This document shows positions 4,239-41,924 of a DNA stretch of 41,924 bases, piece after piece. Numbering within the stretch: position 1 is the stretch's first letter; the number at the start of each line of letters is the position of its first letter. Location: positions 1 to 41,924 of IMG/VR virus record IMGVR_UViG_3300028596_000026. One strand, written 5' to 3'. A program made the position numbers and the translations under genes. Source of the DNA: a virus. A model generated the notes under the pieces. It worked only from the letters and a program-made list of their open reading frames with translations, was not told where the DNA came from and made no database searches.

Positions 4239-4295
4239 GCCACCCTCTCCGGTGGCAATGACATAAGTCAATCACTCACCGGGGAGGGGTGTCAA
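4239..4295 (-). promoter_or_regulatory. Shared phage promoter P1 with 5' hairpin
   Basis: Minus strand: TTGACA (4290-4295), 18 bp, then TTGACTTATGTCAT (4258-4271), then a 6-bp hairpin GCCACC/GGTGGC (4239-4256) with loop GGAGAG, then the SD and ATG of the 56-aa gene. TTGACT falls where a -10 would be and fits the actinobacterial TANNNT loosely. TGAC-TTAT-GTCA is a perfect inverted repeat that could be an operator. The same arrangement occurs at 9046, 13689 and 18554. Confidence 0.75.
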
Positions 4296-4302
4296 CCCCG
4301 GG

Positions 4303-7300
4303 TCAGTGCTCGCAGTCCGACCAGCGGTACGCCGGGTTCGAGACCTCGGCCAGGATCGGCACGCCGCGCCACTCCCACGTGAACGCTTCCCGCAGCATCT
4401 GCGCCCACTCCTCCGCCTCCGCCTCGGGCACCGAGACGATCGCCTCGTCGTGGACGACACCCCGCATCGCGTCCCGGGCCGCCCGGCCGCCGAGGTCGAC
4501 GAACCGCAGCATGGATTCCGTCATGATGTCCCGGGCGCCGCCCTGGCCGTACAACGCCGGCGCCTGAGTCCAGGCGCGGTCGGGGTCGCACCGCATCATC
4601 CGGCCGAACCCGTTGTCGAGCAGCGCCCCGGTGCGCGCCAGTTCGACGACGCCGAGCTTCCACTCCTCGAACACGTGCAGCCGCTCGGCGTGCTTGGCCT
4701 TCGCCGCGAACGTGGCTGCCACGTCGAGCCCGTGCTGTTCGGCCACCGACCGGGGCGACTGGTTGTAGTTCAGGCCGTGGCTGACCGGCTTGTATTCCTT
4801 GCGCCGGGTCCGGTCGCCGCACATGATCCCGGCCATCTCCGCGTGGTAGTCCATCCCCGGCTGGAGCATCGCGATCAGGGCCGGGTCCTGGGAGTGTCCG
4901 GCCAGGGAACGGACGTCGACCTGGGACAGGTCGCAGGTGATCAGGACGTGCCCCGGGTCTGCGACGAACACCGCCCGGTGCGACGGGTGCAGGTTCGAGG
5001 ACGCCGGTTCGCTGGTCGCCCACCGGCCCGAAGCCTGAGGAGCACCCACCTTGGCGTGGGCGCGCCCCTTGGCGTTGGTCCAGCGCTGGATCTCGTCGTA
5101 CTTCGCCGTGGCGCCCGTGGCGAGCGCCAGGATCCCGCAGAGTTCCCGTACGGCCGGCAGGTGCCCGTACGCCTTCGGGTGCAGCATGCCGGGGAACGAC
5201 TCGCCCCGGTCCTTGTCCCACCACATTCCCTCTCCGAGGGCGTCGGCGGAGAGCTTGAGCGTCCCGGAGGCGGTCCGGGGGACGTAGTCGGCTCCCGCAG
5301 CCGCGAACGCCTTGACGAGCGCCTCACGGCCGACGTCGGTGGCCCAGGGGGAGGCGTAGACCTCACCGGGGATGCGGACCGCGAACCCCTCACGCTCCTG
5401 CGTCTCTCCGTCCAGCGCCCGTACATCGGCCATAGACCACTGCTGCGGCCAGTCCTTCTTCAGCTTGAGCTTGAAGCGGTCCGGCTTGGCCAGGGGGACT
5501 CCGTACTCCACCAGGCGCTCCTTGGCCTCCGCGATCTTCGCCGCTTCCTCGGCGACTCGCTCGGCCAGGAGACCGGTATCGATCGCCCAGCCGTTCAGCG
5601 TCATGCGGTTCTGGAGCGCGACCACGCGCATCTCCCGCTCCGCGTACTTGATCCGGGGGTCGTTCGGCGCGAGGCTCGACTCCCCGGGCAGGTGCACCAT
5701 ACGGAGCTGCTCCCAGACGAACTGAGTCGCGGCCAGGTCGCCGCGCAGGTAGTCGTTGTACTCCGGGTCGTCGAGCGGGATCTTGTCGAACCCGCCGTGC
5801 TTGGCTGCCAGCCGCTTGATCTCGTCCGTCTTGCCGGCGTGCCCGAACCGGTTGGCGACGTCGTCCAGCTTGTGCGACGTCCGGCCACCGTCTCGCGCGC
5901 CCGGGGGGTCCAGGAGCTGGGACAGGACCATCGTGTCGACGGCCTTGGCGGCCAGGGCGTCGTAGTCGGCCCCGTGGTGGTAGGCCAGGGCCAGGAGGTC
6001 GAACCCCAGGATGCCGTGGCCGTAGACCGTCCCGGTCTGCGGGGAGGACAGGTCCGTGACCGTGTCCCGCATCTTGTGGGGTTCGTCGGACCGGGCGATC
6101 CAGGGGTTCCCGGACGAGCCGATCGTTCCGGCCAGCCGGACGAACGGGCCCTCCTGGCCGCCCATGAACAATTGGGCTGCGGAGGCCGTCTCCAGGTCCA
6201 TGCCGAACGAGTAGGGCGCCGCGTTCCCAGGGTGCTCGGGGAACCTGTCCTGCGGGTCGTACAGAGCGTCGTCGGGGATCTCGGCCGGCGAACCCTCGTA
6301 CGGCATCGGCTCGGGCGCCGGAGGCTCCTCCGGGCCCGGGTCGTCCGGGTCGAACGGGTTCGGGCCGCCACCCTTGCCGAGCTCCACGCCGTGCCACCCC
6401 CGAATCTGCCGCCCGTCCACGTACTTCCTCCCCGCCTGGATCTTCTTCGCCTTGATCGTGTCGTGGGCGCCGAACCGGGACGCGAACGTCTTGTCGTTCC
6501 ACGGCCGGTGGCCGCGCTCCGCCGACCACTCGTTGAACGCGGCCAGGAGCTCCTGCGCCGGGATGAACGCGCCGGGGTCCAGCGTGAGGACGTCGGCGGT
6601 GAACCCGAGGATCAAGTCCGTCTCCGAGCGCCAGGACTGGGTGTCATCCTCCACGCGCCTCGGAATGTCGAGCATCATCCGGTCCCGGGCATACCAGGCG
6701 CGCGCTCCGTCGACCATCCAGGACAGGGCGGCCGAGCGGACGTCGTGGTCGTCGTGGGCGTACTCCATCGCCGGGTCGCCGAGCCGGTCGAACTCGGTGA
6801 CGACGTCCTCGGGGCGCTTACGGAACGTGAACGGGTACGTGAGGAGCGCGAGCCGCCGCCACGTGCCGTGATCCGTCTCGGTGACCGACGGCCGGTAGTT
6901 CGTGTTCACGAACAGGGAGTGCGTCGTCTTGAAGGTGACCGGGTCCTGCCGGATCCGGCGCGCCGTCAGATCCTCGGTGCCGAGGATCATCTTGAGCCGC
7001 TGGACGTTCAGGTGGCGCGCCTCCGGGGTCTCCTCCAGGACCGCGTACCGGGCACCTTTCAGATCCATGAGCTCGGTCGGGTGGTCACCGGCGTTACCCA
7101 TCAGCACACGGTCGGAGACCTGCACCCCGTACTTACCGATGGCGCGCCGGATCGTGTTGGTGATCGTCGACTTCCCGTTGGACCCGGCGCCGCACCCGAT
7201 GACCATGACGTGGTCGGGCGTCTTGTAACCGGTGAGTGCCTGGCCAAGACGGTCCTGGAGCCACGGGACGACGTCCGCCGGCAGGGCCGTGAGCGCCTTG

Positions 7301-8520
7301 GTCCACGTCGGATGGGTGTACCCGGGCCGGTACTCGCAGCCCGCCATGAGGGTGACCAGGTCGTTCGGGTCAAACGGCCGCAGCACCCCGGTGGGCAGGT
7401 GCAGGGTGCCGTTCATGACCGTGAGCAGATCGGGGTCTCCGTCGAAGTCCTCGGCGTACCGCTCCAGGATGCCGCGCGCCAGGTCGACCAGGGCCCGGAG
7501 CCGGTTCTTGGCCAGCACGCCGCGCCAGCCGGTGATCTGGCCCCGCATGTCCTGGGACTGGTTGTCGCGCTGCTTCGCCAGAGCGCCCTCGAACTGGGAC
7601 AGGGCCCAGATACGGACGGCCTCCACGGGCTCGGTCTCCGAGACCTCCGTCCAGACCCGGCCGGTCCACTTCAGCCACCCGAGCCCGGAGGCCCAGCAGA
7701 ACCGGCCCTCCAGCGTCCCGGAGCAGACGGCCTCCACCAGGTACGCGTCGGTGAACGACGCGTCGGCGGCGTTGCCTCCGGGCGGCGTGGTGCGGGCGGC
7801 GGCCGAGAGCGCCTCCAGGGTGCCCCCGGCGGCGAAGTAGTCGTCCACACCCTTGACCTCGGTGCCGTCGACCTCGGGCGGCACAACCAGGTAGTGGACG
7901 ACCGCCGCACCCCGGGACTTGAGCCAGGCGCCGAGCCGGGTCATGGCGAGCTGGACGTGCCGGTTGCCCTCGGCGTCGGCGTCGAAGCAGACGACCACGG
8001 GGCGCCCCTTGACCGGGACGTCCTCCCAGTCGCCGAGCGCGCCCATGGCGTTGCGGAAGTTGAACACGCCCGTGAGGCCGACGGCCGCGCACCCGGCGGT
8101 GACGATCGCGTCCACCTTTTTCATGCCCTCGGTGATCCACAGGGCGGTCCCGGGGTTCTCCCGGAGCCGCTCCAGGGACACCACCGGCATGTCGACGACC
8201 AAGGGCGCGCCCTTGGGGGTCTCGTACTTGATCGGCTTGGGCTCGCCCTTGGCGTTCATGCGCACCCGGGGAACGGCGGGCTTGACCTGGTAGCCGCTCG
8301 GCTCGCCGTCGGCGCCGAGCATCGGGACCAGGAGCATCGGGTAGGCGTCGTCGCGCTCCCAGACCGGGCGGGAGTAGCCGAGATCCTGGAGGAACTCGCG
8401 ATCGGCGGGGGTTCCGGTGAGGGTGCGGTAGCCGCGCGCCGTGATCGCGTCGCGGCCGATAGCGGAATCGACGAGCAGTTCGGTCTGGTGGTCGGGGGAC
8501 AGGTCGGTGAGCTCGGTCAT
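4303..8520 (-). CDS. Primase/SF3 helicase fused to family A DNA polymerase
   Basis: A 1405-aa single polypeptide. I chose ATG 8520 for its GGAAGAG SD. In order: a TOPRIM-type (DUF3854-like) primase region with WITEG (128-132) and CFDADAEG (178-185); an SF3 helicase with Walker A GCGAGSNGKST (442-452), an acidic motif VLEET (494-498) and SLFVNTN (535-541); a Pro-rich linker (718-745); a DEDDy 3'-5' exonuclease (DLE 775-777, D841, Y924-x3-D928); and a polymerase with motif A DLSQVDVR (1197-1204), motif B R1240/K1244/Y1252 and motif C HDE (1357-1359). All catalytic motifs I looked for are present except the usual Asn of exo motif II. One chain could unwind, prime, copy and proofread. It is the core of the minus-strand replication island. 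Confidence 0.9.
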   Translation of the reverse strand: MTELTDLSPDHQTELLVDSAIGRDAITARGYRTLTGTPADREFLQDLGYSRPVWERDDAYPMLLVPMLGADGEPSGYQVKPAVPRVRMNAKGEPKPIKYETPKGAPLVVDMPVVSLERLRENPGTALWITEGMKKVDAIVTAGCAAVGLTGVFNFRNAMGALGDWEDVPVKGRPVVVCFDADAEGNRHVQLAMTRLGAWLKSRGAAVVHYLVVPPEVDGTEVKGVDDYFAAGGTLEALSAAARTTPPGGNAADASFTDAYLVEAVCSGTLEGRFCWASGLGWLKWTGRVWTEVSETEPVEAVRIWALSQFEGALAKQRDNQSQDMRGQITGWRGVLAKNRLRALVDLARGILERYAEDFDGDPDLLTVMNGTLHLPTGVLRPFDPNDLVTLMAGCEYRPGYTHPTWTKALTALPADVVPWLQDRLGQALTGYKTPDHVMVIGCGAGSNGKSTITNTIRRAIGKYGVQVSDRVLMGNAGDHPTELMDLKGARYAVLEETPEARHLNVQRLKMILGTEDLTARRIRQDPVTFKTTHSLFVNTNYRPSVTETDHGTWRRLALLTYPFTFRKRPEDVVTEFDRLGDPAMEYAHDDHDVRSAALSWMVDGARAWYARDRMMLDIPRRVEDDTQSWRSETDLILGFTADVLTLDPGAFIPAQELLAAFNEWSAERGHRPWNDKTFASRFGAHDTIKAKKIQAGRKYVDGRQIRGWHGVELGKGGGPNPFDPDDPGPEEPPAPEPMPYEGSPAEIPDDALYDPQDRFPEHPGNAAPYSFGMDLETASAAQLFMGGQEGPFVRLAGTIGSSGNPWIARSDEPHKMRDTVTDLSSPQTGTVYGHGILGFDLLALAYHHGADYDALAAKAVDTMVLSQLLDPPGARDGGRTSHKLDDVANRFGHAGKTDEIKRLAAKHGGFDKIPLDDPEYNDYLRGDLAATQFVWEQLRMVHLPGESSLAPNDPRIKYAEREMRVVALQNRMTLNGWAIDTGLLAERVAEEAAKIAEAKERLVEYGVPLAKPDRFKLKLKKDWPQQWSMADVRALDGETQEREGFAVRIPGEVYASPWATDVGREALVKAFAAAGADYVPRTASGTLKLSADALGEGMWWDKDRGESFPGMLHPKAYGHLPAVRELCGILALATGATAKYDEIQRWTNAKGRAHAKVGAPQASGRWATSEPASSNLHPSHRAVFVADPGHVLITCDLSQVDVRSLAGHSQDPALIAMLQPGMDYHAEMAGIMCGDRTRRKEYKPVSHGLNYNQSPRSVAEQHGLDVAATFAAKAKHAERLHVFEEWKLGVVELARTGALLDNGFGRMMRCDPDRAWTQAPALYGQGGARDIMTESMLRFVDLGGRAARDAMRGVVHDEAIVSVPEAEAEEWAQMLREAFTWEWRGVPILAEVSNPAYRWSDCEH

Positions 8521-8597
8521 TCGGTACTCTTCCGGTGGTGGTGGCCTTACGGATGGCGCCCGGAGCCTCGTCGGCGCGAACTGGCGGGGCTCCTCCC

Positions 8598-8736
8598 GTC
8601 TTGTGCCTGACCTGGGGAAACGTGGCAATGCACGACCCTGCAAGACGGATAAGACAGGTGTCTGGGTTAACCCCAGGATACTAACTCCACACGAGGGTTA
8701 TACCAAGCACCTGTCTTATCCGTCTTGTTGCCGTCT
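8598..8736. repeat. Duplicated intergenic element, copy E1
   Basis: This element lies in the 233-bp gap between the HTH gene and the polymerase fusion and is repeated at 27310-27451 in the same orientation. Common parts are GTCTTGTGCCTGACCTG at the left, a perfect 18-bp inverted repeat AAGACGGATAAGACAGGT (8642-8659 with 8709-8726), AACTCCACACGAGGGT in the 49-bp spacer, and three GTCTT boxes 10-11 bp apart on the right (8712-8736). The copies differ in scattered positions between these blocks, so the blocks seem selected. Possible roles: operator for a multimeric regulator, replication origin, or structured leader RNA. Confidence 0.8.
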
Positions 8737-8753
8737 TGGCGGCCTAAGCGGAA

Positions 8754-9023
8754 TCAGTCCACCCGCACCTGGGACCAGTCCGATTCGCTGTCCGGGTTGC
8801 ACCACGCCCGAAGGCAAAGCCCCGGGTGCCCGCACCCGCGCATGATCACGTGCGCTCGGAGTTCGGCCGCGTCGTACGTGGCGCAGACGGCGCGCTCGCC
8901 CATCCTGCGGTACTCCACCGACAGACGGCCGGCCGCCGCCCAGCGCTTGATCGTGCGGTCCGTGACCCCGGCCAGCTCGGCCGCTTCGCGCGTGCTCACG
9001 CGCGCGTTCTTCTCGTTTGTCAT
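8754..9023 (-). CDS. Small HTH regulator (excisionase/MerR-like fold)
   Basis: An 89-aa protein with an N-terminal winged-helix-type HTH (STREAAELAGVTDRTIKRWAA, about 10-29) of the class used by small DNA-binding adaptors. Further on it has Cys residues (CATYD, CGHPGLCLRAWC at 64-76) that could bind a metal. No integrase is visible, so it is more likely a transcription or replication regulator. It is first in the minus-strand island, divergent from the 9122 operon across promoter P2, and just upstream of element E1. No clear SD precedes the ATG; TACCCT about 9 bp upstream could be a -10 giving a nearly leaderless mRNA. Confidence 0.7.
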   Translation of the reverse strand: MTNEKNARVSTREAAELAGVTDRTIKRWAAAGRLSVEYRRMGERAVCATYDAAELRAHVIMRGCGHPGLCLRAWCNPDSESDWSQVRVD

Positions 9024-9045
9024 GGGCCCAGGGTACGTCCCGGGG

Positions 9046-9102
9046 TTGACGGGGTCCCCGGGGCCGTGTTTGACTTATGCCATCGCCGGAGGAGAGACCG
9101 GC
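9046..9102 (+). promoter_or_regulatory. Shared phage promoter P2 with 5' hairpin
   Basis: TTGACG (9046-9051), 18 bp, TTGACTTATGCCA (9070-9082), then a hairpin GCCGG/CCGGC (9085-9102) whose loop is AGGAGAGA. The leader continues into CGAGGAGACACC and the GTG of the next gene; this SD block is identical at P3 and P4. It probably drives the long plus-strand early operon. It lies 23 bp from the start of the divergent HTH gene, which may control it. Confidence 0.75.
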
Positions 9103-18425: not shown

Positions 18426-18461
18426 CGAAGCCCCTGCCGAACCCCACTGGCAGGGGCTTCG
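18426..18461 (+). terminator. Terminator of the early operon
   Basis: A perfect 13-bp stem (18426-18438 with 18449-18461) with a 10-nt loop lies 47 bp after the last small gene. It ends the plus-strand run of coupled genes and isolates the next promoter region. The following bases are not a clean U-run. Confidence 0.75.
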
Positions 18462-18463
18462 TC

Positions 18464-18545
18464 GTGTCCGTTTCTACCGGAAATCTCAGGACATCGAAGA
18501 GCGAGTTGTGTCCGTTTCTACCGGAAATCTCCGGACATCCAAGAG
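18464..18545. repeat. Two tandem 38-bp direct repeats
   Basis: Copies at 18464-18501 and 18508-18545 begin GTGTCCGTTTCTACCGG and end AAGAG, with two mismatches. The period is 44 bp, about four helix turns. Each unit has CCGG-AAATCT-(C/A)(C)GG symmetry and GTCCG/CGGAC ends. They lie directly upstream of promoter P4 (TTGACA at 18554), so they may be operators or activator sites for the 18624 gene. Confidence 0.8.
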
Positions 18546-27295: not shown

Positions 27296-27309
27296 GCTGT
27301 CTTGGACGT

Positions 27310-27451
27310 GTCTTGTGCCTGACCTGCGAAAACGTTGGTTACCCCGAAGTAGTAAGACGGATAAGACAGGTAGCTTGGTTACCCCCAGATACATAACTCC
27401 ACACGAGGGTAAACTTTGGACCTGTCTTATCCGTCTTGCTGCCGTCTTGTT
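27310..27451. repeat. Duplicated intergenic element, copy E2
   Basis: Second copy of the element at 8598-8736, in the same orientation. The perfect 18-bp inverted repeat lies at 27354-27371 and 27420-27437 (48-bp spacer with AACTCCACACGAGGGT), and the phased GTCTT boxes at 27423-27447. TTGGTTACCCC occurs twice inside this copy. The right end runs into TTGGCATAAGTCAC (27450-27463), an inverted, partial copy of the P1-P4 core block. It separates the terminator at 27264 from the capsid gene. Confidence 0.8.
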
Positions 27452-27463
27452 GGCATAAGTCAC

Positions 27464-27612: not shown

Positions 27613-29388
27613 ATGGCAGACGAGACCATCGAGACGCCTGTGCCGTTCGACGCATCGGCCCTGAACGACACCGACCTGTACGCCGAGTACGCCACCGCCC
27701 GCGAGCGCGGTTCGGAGCTGGCCCAGCTCTCGGTACGCACCCCGGAGCAGTCCGCCGAGCTGGCCGACATCGCCGGCCGCGCCACCGCTCTGCACGGTGA
27801 GATCTCGGCGCGCCACAACGCCGCGTCCGCCGAACAGGCGAACGTCGACGTGTTCGGAGCCCTCCCCGAGCTCACCGCCCCCGTCATCGCGCCCCTGGAG
27901 ACCGCCCCTGAGGCGCCCGTGACGCCCCCGGCGGCCGTGGAGCCCGTGACGGTCCCGTCCGTGGCGGAGCTGGGCGCACAGCCGCTCCAGCCTCCGGCCG
28001 TCGCCCCGATCCGCCCGAACGGTGGTCTGCGGGTCAGCCTCTCCGCCGACTCGGCCGCCGTCCTCGGGCGCACCACGGCCGACGGCGCGACCCTGGACGA
28101 CATCTCCAACGCCTCGGGCCGCCTCTTCGCCCAGTTCGGCAAGTCGACCGCCTCCGGTGAGGGCCGCGTCCGCCGTTCCCTCGGCCAGATCGTGCGCGAC
28201 CGTGACCCCGAGCTGGTCATGCCGCGCACCGCCGACCCGAACGCCGAGCTGGCCGTCATCAACCGGGCGCGCAACGAACGCCGTCTCGACGGCGGATCGC
28301 TGCTCAAGACCTGGGCCGACTCGGTCAAGGCCAACGAGGATCAGCCCGACGCGCTCACCGCCGCCGCCGGCTGGTGCGCCCCGTCGGAGAACCGTTACGA
28401 CCTGTGCTCCCTGTGGGACCTGGACGGGCTCATCGACCTGCCCACGACCACGGCGCCCCGAGGCGGCATCAACTACACGCCCGACTTCACGTGGGCGGCG
28501 ATCAACGACGCGGCGATCACCAGCTTCACCAAGCTGACCGAAGCCCAGGTCATCGCCGACACCCCGAAGAACTGCACCGAGCTCCCGTGCCCGGTGTTCA
28601 CCGACCGCCGTCTGGACGTGGCTGTCACTTGCATCACCGGCTCGTTCCTCCAGTCGCACGCGTACCCGGAGGTCGTCGCCACCTGGCGTGACGGTCTCCT
28701 GACCAAGCACGCGTACGAGGTGAACAAGGACATCATCCAGCAGATCCTGGCTTTCGCCCCGGCGCCGGTCGTCATCCCGCCGCAGGGTGCCACCCCGGCC
28801 CCCGGCTCGGGCCCGGACACCTCGGCCGCGTCCTCGCTCCTGTCGGCGATCGAGCTGGCCGCCGTCGACATGCGCGAGCGCTCGAACATGTCGTTCAACC
28901 GGACGCTGGAGGTCGTGCTCCCCCGCTGGGTGCTCGCCGTCCTGCGCGCCGACATCGCGCGCCGCAACGCCTGGCACGCCGACCCGTTCGCCCTGGCGAA
29001 CCAGACGATCGTGTCCTGGTTCACCACGCGCGGCGTGCGCCCCCAGTTCATCCGTGGCTGGCAGGACGCCCAGTCCGGCCTGGCGACGGGCCCCGGCGAC
29101 ATCACGGACCCGATCACGCCCATCACGGCGTTCCCGACCACGGTCAACTTCCTGATCTACCCGGCCGGCGCGATCGTCCTGGCGCGTGAGGACATCATCA
29201 CGCTGACCAACGTGTACGACGCCGCGTCGCTGCGCCAGAACCTCTACACGGCCCTCTTCACGGAAGAGGCGTACGCGCCGATCTTCCCGTGCGGTGAGGT
29301 CCGGGAGTACACGGCCAACATCTGCCCGTCCGGTGCGACCGGCGCCCAGGTCTGGACGTCCTGCGCCGTCCCGGCCGCCGCCGCGTAA
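27613..29388 (+). CDS. Major capsid protein with N-terminal scaffold-like domain
   Basis: A 591-aa protein from ATG 27613 (SD AAGGAG). Residues 1-130 are helical then Pro/Ala-rich (ARERGSELAQLSVRTPEQSA; APVIAPLETAPEAPVT), like a delta/scaffold region to be removed by the protease. The rest is an HK97-fold type capsid protein by position and pattern (RRLDVAVTCITGSFL; LEVVLPRWVLAVLRADIARR; FPTTVNFLIYPAGAIVLARED; LYTALFTEEAYAPIF). Six or more Cys in the mature part could form disulfides. It is the first gene after element E2. Confidence 0.85.
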   Translation: MADETIETPVPFDASALNDTDLYAEYATARERGSELAQLSVRTPEQSAELADIAGRATALHGEISARHNAASAEQANVDVFGALPELTAPVIAPLETAPEAPVTPPAAVEPVTVPSVAELGAQPLQPPAVAPIRPNGGLRVSLSADSAAVLGRTTADGATLDDISNASGRLFAQFGKSTASGEGRVRRSLGQIVRDRDPELVMPRTADPNAELAVINRARNERRLDGGSLLKTWADSVKANEDQPDALTAAAGWCAPSENRYDLCSLWDLDGLIDLPTTTAPRGGINYTPDFTWAAINDAAITSFTKLTEAQVIADTPKNCTELPCPVFTDRRLDVAVTCITGSFLQSHAYPEVVATWRDGLLTKHAYEVNKDIIQQILAFAPAPVVIPPQGATPAPGSGPDTSAASSLLSAIELAAVDMRERSNMSFNRTLEVVLPRWVLAVLRADIARRNAWHADPFALANQTIVSWFTTRGVRPQFIRGWQDAQSGLATGPGDITDPITPITAFPTTVNFLIYPAGAIVLAREDIITLTNVYDAASLRQNLYTALFTEEAYAPIFPCGEVREYTANICPSGATGAQVWTSCAVPAAAA

Positions 29389-41600: not shown

Positions 41601-41924
41601 ATGCCCGCGAACACCCCGAACTTCGGGTTCACGTACCCGCTCCCCGCCGACCCGAACGACGTCCCGGCGGACCTGGAGCTCTTTGCGAACCAGGTCGAGG
41701 GCACCTTGTTCGCGCTGGAGAGTTACTCCCGGCCCCGCCACATGGCGCAGGTGCTCGGCTCGGTCACCAACACCATCCCCGGCACCGCGACCCAGGGGAC
41801 CGTGACCTGGCAGACGACCGACTTCAACACGGCGTGGGAGGAGCCCCTCGGCACCGACCCGGCGATCGTCCCGTTCACGGACGCGGCGACAACCAACATC
41901 ACGGTCAACTGGCCGGGGTACTGG
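41601..41924 (+). CDS. Minor tail protein, paralogue 3, N-terminal part
   Basis: The gene starts at ATG 41601 (MPANTPNFGFTYPL, anchor LELFANQVEGTLFALES) and runs off the window end; it continues at 102-613. Full length is 205 aa. Positions 41707-41924 are the right copy of the terminal repeat. Residue choice at the single mismatch (41798 G, 193 A) is synonymous: GGG against GGA, both Gly. Confidence 0.8.
   Translation, partial: MPANTPNFGFTYPLPADPNDVPADLELFANQVEGTLFALESYSRPRHMAQVLGSVTNTIPGTATQGTVTWQTTDFNTAWEEPLGTDPAIVPFTDAATTNITVNWPGYW
41707..41924 (+). repeat. Terminal direct repeat, right copy
   Basis: Matches 102-319 with one mismatch. It shows that the contig closes on itself. It is too short and too central in a gene to be taken as a natural genome end without read evidence. 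Confidence 0.9.

Follow-up and report, generated by a model that had tools for sequence, protein, structure and literature searches.

Candidate replication origins built of inverted 9-bp repeats accompany a P4/D5-type primase-helicase in actinophages and Streptomyces plasmids

Results

Genes and repeats of the window

The window, by which we mean the whole stretch of DNA analysed here (41,924 nucleotides, IMG/VR record IMGVR_UViG_3300028596_000026), carries a direct terminal repeat at 102-319 and 41707-41924 (218 nt, 1 mismatch), so that the genome looks circular. One strand encodes a large protein in which a P4/D5-type primase-helicase is fused to a family A DNA polymerase, with the domains DUF3854, D5_N, DUF5906, a weak Pox_D5 and DNA_pol_A in Pfam and PHROGs, and, upstream of it, a small MerR/BldC-like HTH protein; the major head protein is encoded on the other strand. 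The ORFs scanned also include an exonuclease and a weak match to a Holliday-junction resolvase.

An element occurs twice in this genome, preceding the polymerase gene in one case and the capsid gene in the other (E1 and E2, Table 1). The initial annotation had reported such a pair, and repeat search and gene calls bear it out: the search recovered the two copies unprompted, as matches of 101 nt at 77% and 53 nt at 81% with a spacing of 18712, which is 0.45 of the circle and agrees with the earlier figure of about 18.7 kb, nearly opposite on the circle. The spans first given, 8598-8736 and 27310-27451, had the locations right, while the repeated boxes extend to about 8598-8748 and 27299-27459. 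The perfect 18-bp inverted repeat said to be kept in both copies is indeed there, with 36 of 36 arm bases identical, and in E1 the perfect arms reach 20 bp. The identical central block is also present, its length being 17 bp (TAACTCCACACGAGGGT) rather than the 16 bp first noted. What had been missed is a substructure: each arm consists of two 9-bp direct repeats, AAGACGGAT|AAGACAGGT, and thus each element has four 9-bp boxes, two per arm, with the arms inverted about the core. CGTCTTG boxes additionally flank both elements, and the outer flanks are otherwise little alike.

Table 1. Features of the window discussed in the text
Feature	Position	Strand	Description
Fused P4/D5-type primase-helicase and family A DNA polymerase	4303..8520	-	1405 aa; proposed initiator; Pfam, PHROGs
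Primase-helicase C-terminal part	6370..6753	-	predicted winged helix, RFX-like; proposed box-reading domain; AlphaFold2, Foldseek
Element E1	8598..8748	.	initiator-linked copy, between HTH and primase-polymerase genes; repeat search, reading of sequence, relatives
Side block of E1	8604..8625	+	GTGCCTGACCTGGGGAAACGT
E1 left arm	8642..8659	+	two 9-bp direct repeats, AAGACGGAT + AAGACAGGT
E1 core	8660..8708	.	49 bp; 51% G+C vs 70% G+C in the genome
E1 right arm	8709..8726	-	exact inverted copy of left arm
Outer box CGTCTTG, right of E1	8732..8738	+	further outer box on the left, 8597-8603
MerR/BldC-like HTH protein	8754..9023	-	89 aa; rival binder or replication-operon regulator
Element E2	27299..27459	.	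late-region copy, 5' of major head protein gene; relatives keep 5'-of-capsid copy
Side block of E2	27316..27337	+	GTGCCTGACCTGCGAAAACGT
E2 left arm	27354..27371	+	same sequence as E1 arm
E2 core	27372..27419	.	48 bp; 48% G+C; 78% identity to E1 core, same orientation
E2 right arm	27420..27437	-	
Major head protein	27613..29388	+	downstream of E2; PHROG 777, E 1e-106

The sequence AAGACGGATAAGACAGGT occurs only four times in the genome, twice on each strand, and these occurrences form the two inverted pairs. Moreover, E1 and E2 each score 25 in a motif-free scan, which looks for 9-bp direct repeats arranged as inverted pairs, while 12 Markov-randomised copies of the window reach a maximum of 20-21; this excludes a chance origin of the two elements. 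A further sequence, TGACCTGCGGAAACG, like the blocks at 8604-8625 and 27316-27337, adjoins the element in several capsid relatives in either orientation, among them G006, L010 and L013 and, inverted, L008. We regard this type of block as a likely second, putative binding site.

Several other repeats were seen in the window. At its left end, a perfect 108-nt inverted repeat (1-108 and 362-469) resembles an assembly fold-back. A 27-nt perfect inverted repeat, 1956-1982 and 7238-7264, has its copies 5.3 kb apart, each with a CGTCTTG or CAAGACG box, and a near-perfect 41-nt tandem duplication (93%, start spacing 44) lies at 18461-18545, in or near a short non-coding stretch. An imperfect inverted pair of 58 nt (72%), at 4245-4302 and 9039-9096, has its halves just beyond the 3' end of the polymerase gene and ahead of the HTH gene and contains TTGAC and a CATAAGTCA-like motif; relatives G006 and G010 have a similar CATAAGTAAAC...TGTCAACCC sequence before their HTH gene, and the pair is possibly the real promoter or operator of the HTH operon.

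Base composition was also considered. The maximum of the cumulative GC skew falls at 27381, 14 bp from the centre of E2 (block permutation p 0.002). We rejected this break as an origin signal, since it tracks codon positions 2 and 3 of the structural genes and since G029, G027, pS1D4 and G016 show the same break where their capsid gene begins, a site at which no element was detected.

Relatives of the capsid and primase genes

Among relatives of the capsid gene (57-61% identity), the element is present 5' of that gene wherever the upstream region was covered, with changed box letters, CTAGACGGGTTAGACAGG or TGTGCCGGATGTGCCGGG. In the three records that reach the primase (G002, G006 and G010), a second copy with the same boxes lies between the HTH gene and the primase, indicating that the two sites, and the two arms of each, change their boxes together.

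A profile built from three primases gave 48 IMG/VR loci, 44 of which are evaluable in that the region past the primase is covered; these include close relatives of one another and should not be counted as 44 independent lineages. In all 44, each with a relative of the window's P4/D5-type primase-helicase, the primase is accompanied by the element. The initial annotation had held that lack of the element from relatives that keep the gene order would count against its reading; such relatives do carry it. In 33 loci the element lies within a reading frame that continues past the primase, in nearly all of them into the polymerase, and so at the primase-polymerase junction; in 10 it lies 6-75 bp past the primase stop, and in one (G002, L007) it is 5' of the primase gene, as in the window. 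The arm-to-arm spacing is 46-56 bp throughout and the 9-bp period is constant, whereas the box sequences vary widely (GGTTACGCC, TGTACCGCC, TGTTCCCGG, GTGACGGAT, GTGCAAGAG and others). The element is the top-scoring structure of its kind in the whole locus of about 20 kb in 41 of 43 loci, its core has a lower G+C content than the genome in nearly all relatives, and the orientation of the core relative to the flanking genes differs from genome to genome. At the 33 junction loci (L034-L080, e.g. L047:12194-12282) the putative origin DNA would be translated as an interdomain linker.

Other searches mark out how far the element reaches. The sole exact database copy of the arms, L001 in IMG/VR, is a 4503-bp fragment of the same virus (0 mismatches) and is therefore not independent evidence. 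Named phages searched with the element itself gave no useful match, and a scan of GTDB genomes with the primase alignment gave 61 pattern matches, none of them confirmed. Around the primases of more distant named D5-primase actinophages (Dubu, phiAsp2, OscarSo, Isperia, Wyvern, LuckyBarnes, AvGardian, Adumb2043, Honk, YDN12 and Xkcd426) the motif-free scan found nothing above background, so that the architecture is not shared by every actinophage with a D5 primase. A partial literature search found no paper describing this element in phages.

Second copies

When whole records were scanned, 11 genomes turned out to have another copy, situated in the capsid or tail region and with arms that match in 34-36 of 36 bases: the window, G001, G002, G006, G010, G012, G037, G038, G041, G049 and G053. 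Counting a looser second copy in pS1D4-14.2, there are 12 pairs, 11 of which match this closely in their arms. The arms differ from one genome to another but agree within each, while the cores of a pair are mostly 65-88% alike and the flanks unrelated. This block-wise pattern strongly supports the suggestion of the initial annotation that the element is a binding array rather than a recent copy. As far as neighbouring genes could be named, the second copy is 5' of the capsid gene in the window, G002, G006, G010 and G049, and near tape-measure genes in G001, G012, G053 and probably G041. If the short fragments G006 and G010 are disregarded, the copies are separated by 0.32-0.49 of the record length; their relative orientation is inverted in G006, G012 and G053 and direct in the others. 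The idea that every genome has exactly two copies was dropped once more records had been scanned: the other records have one copy only, among them G019, G029, G039 and G043, which have terminal repeats and may be complete genomes. Thus the primase-linked copy is constant and the late copy is optional.

Plasmids of Streptomyces

Five small conjugative Streptomyces plasmids, with monomers of about 13.5-16 kb, carry one element per monomer, just 3' of the primase. They encode an HTH protein, a prim-pol protein and a P4-family primase that is 43-45% identical to that of the window. The records NZ_CP029340.1, NZ_CP108706.1, NZ_CP108534.1 and NZ_CP109563.1 consist of two near-identical halves, i.e. 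head-to-tail dimers or assembly duplications. A larger plasmid, pS1D4-14.2 (NZ_CP041606.1, 98.8 kb; L135, L136), has portal, capsid, terminase and tape-measure genes together with ParA/ParB, and so looks like a phage-plasmid.

Initiator and HTH protein as box readers

Mantel correlations on 31-41 phages were used to compare the divergence of the boxes with that of the two candidate proteins. Distances between boxes are correlated with those between primases (rho 0.50-0.59). With the primase core controlled, HTH distance adds nothing (rho -0.08, p 0.80), and what remains for the primase C-terminal domain is small (0.17-0.27, p 0.027 and 0.004). Covariation with the boxes is as good for the N-terminal part of the primase as for the C-terminal domain, so it does not pin down the box-reading domain. 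A residue-by-residue association of the boxes with HTH or primase columns was dropped as uninformative, because clade-specific residues dominate it. The HTH gene adjoins the primase in most relatives; at E 0.01, HTH_17 has no match in G029, G038, G041, G043 and G053, all of them element-bearing genomes of about 41-43 kb. On these comparisons the HTH protein appears a less likely binder of the boxes than the primase-helicase.

For the C-terminal region of the primase, AlphaFold2 confidently predicts a winged helix (pLDDT 91), the best solved match of which in Foldseek is the RFX DNA-binding domain (prob 1.00); the P4 origin-binding structure is absent among the best 50 Foldseek matches of this model, and the sequence of the domain has no relevant match among solved structures. 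RFX proteins recognise GTNRCC half-sites, and GTNNC is present in many boxes of this element family, which we take as a lead only. D5_N and DUF5906 are above cut-off in the proteins of the window, G001 and G002, and Pox_D5 is below it in the window protein and just above it in that of G002. The tail domain of a viral D5-type primase-helicase has been likened both to the P4 origin-binding domain and to RFX1 (PMC10516667).

Discussion

Our analysis suggests, with a good deal of confidence, that E1 and E2 are inverted-iteron replication origin elements bound by the phage's own P4/D5-type primase-helicase. Paired replication origins were among the roles offered by the initial annotation and are the one that the comparative data favour. 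E1, the initiator-linked copy, is likely the origin of this primase-helicase, while E2, the late-region copy, could be either a second origin or a fork barrier. We imagine that the primase-helicase binds the boxes in both arms, probably via its C-terminal winged helix, and that it would then assemble over the core of lower G+C content, melt it, prime and start replication; the fused polymerase may extend the primer. E2 might serve as an optional second origin or, alternatively, as a bound site that stalls forks and so turns replication of the circle into concatemer synthesis, as has been proposed for oriR of SPP1.

Could the element instead be an operator? The two copies would then form an operator pair for the BldC-like HTH protein, its protomers arranged head to tail on the 9-bp repeats, and would switch expression from early to late at the polymerase and capsid genes. 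In favour of this, direct repeats of 9 bp are bound by BldC protomers in head-to-tail fashion (PMC5859096), the primase has an HTH_17 gene upstream of it in the window, the plasmids and most relatives, and in the window both elements are 5' of the genes concerned. However, 43 of 44 loci have the element within the initiator gene or just 3' of it and not at a promoter, the orientation of its core relative to the genes is variable, five genomes have the element without an HTH_17 match, and box divergence shows no residual correlation with HTH divergence. Moreover, the plasmids lack late phage genes, so that an operator of capsid expression cannot explain the element there, while an origin can. 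The early-to-late switch or promoter that the initial annotation had also offered is thus a poor fit, and we consider the operator unlikely.

Even less probable is a site for partition or DNA looping, centromere-like or tethering, which would pair the two halves of the genome rather than start replication. The separation of the copies by a third to a half of the record agrees with such a role, as does the anatomy of P1 parS, in which inverted boxes surround a core. Single-copy genomes and plasmids exist, however, and the element tracks the primase gene rather than parAB, with no ParA/ParB among the window ORFs scanned. We give still less weight, indeed almost none, to a recombination site, either attP or a resolution site, with the HTH protein as excisionase. 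Paired arm sites about a core do resemble attP, and excisionases occur among HTH_17 proteins (PMC11963761). But no integrase, and likewise no resolvase, was found among the window ORFs scanned; moreover, genomes differ in how their two copies are oriented to each other, and the boxes diverge along with the primase.

More generally, and much more tentatively, we propose that one and the same origin architecture is common to a large group of actinophages and Streptomyces plasmids, most of them uncultured, and that its box code is free to drift as the initiator changes. In most phages of this group the origin would be translated as a primase-polymerase linker, and in many a further copy in the late region, about a third to half of the genome away, would act as another origin or as a barrier to forks in the change to concatemer synthesis. 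The rule of two 9-bp repeats, inverted, 46-56 bp apart and at a P4-type primase would predict origins within about 100 bp, for dozens of never-cultured phages as well as for a group of Streptomyces plasmids. Since the boxes differ while the architecture is fixed, the group offers a natural experiment on the joint change of specificity in initiator and origin. New minimal replicons for Streptomyces are a further prospect, and the idea raised for SPP1, that an origin in the late region governs the shift from one replication mode to another, gains a testable case.

Comparison with known systems

The operators of BldC in Streptomyces share with the element the 9-bp direct repeats and a BldC-like HTH protein encoded close by; their repeat number is variable, however, and they have neither a fixed inverted architecture nor a link to a primase. 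In its layout the window resembles the Bacillus phage SPP1, in which a single initiator binds two distant sites, oriL within the initiator gene and oriR among the late genes (PMC6316719), so that in both cases one site is in the initiator gene or module and the other in the late structural region. SPP1 oriR may stall forks, and a theta-to-sigma switch has been proposed (PMC6316719, PMC3485210). SPP1 uses a dedicated origin-binding protein (gp38) and a DnaB-type helicase, whereas the initiator candidate of the window is an unrelated D5/SF3 primase-helicase; because the initiators differ, the likeness is one of layout and the window cannot be assigned to the SPP1 type.

In the satellite phage P4, the alpha primase-helicase has D5_N and SF3 domains, and the order D5_N, DUF5906 and weak Pox_D5 is common to it and the window primase-helicase. 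The type 1 repeats of P4, GGTGAACAG, occur at ori and crr, two of them 9 bp apart. As in the phages compared here, two distant sites share their short repeats, some of them spaced by 9 bp and placed in inverse orientation in a unit of about 120 bp; relative G001 has the P4 repeat GGTGAACAG inside its boxes. On the other hand, the repeats of P4 are less regular and run in the opposite direction, while the phage boxes vary widely in sequence, the element is often inside the primase-polymerase frame and its second copy is optional. By domains and layout, the view that the element works like ori/crr and belongs to the P4 type is supported, though not proven.

The crenarchaeal plasmid pRN1 has as its origin a 100-bp stem-loop, 54 bp 3' of the gene of an SF3 replication protein (PMC4234260). 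Low conservation of sequence with high conservation of structure is common to both systems, and the pRN1 protein combines prim-pol, SF3 helicase and winged helix; its stem-loop was described without iterons, and its primase fold is another one.

Finally, pWTY27 is a small, conjugative theta plasmid of Streptomyces with a prim-pol RepB, a 522-aa RepA and an adjacent non-coding inverted repeat. RepA footprints a discontinuous inverted repeat of about 105 bp beside repA, the loop being unprotected, and the region is needed for replication (PMC3583192). A 149-bp piece with the footprinted repeat failed to restore replication, while 300 bp did (PMC3583192). By its published description, pWTY27 (GU226194, GTGGGAAC repeats) appears to share its layout with our five element-bearing plasmids; it differs from the window in having one origin only. 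Among the systems compared, we regard pWTY27 as the nearest experimental support for reading the element as an origin.
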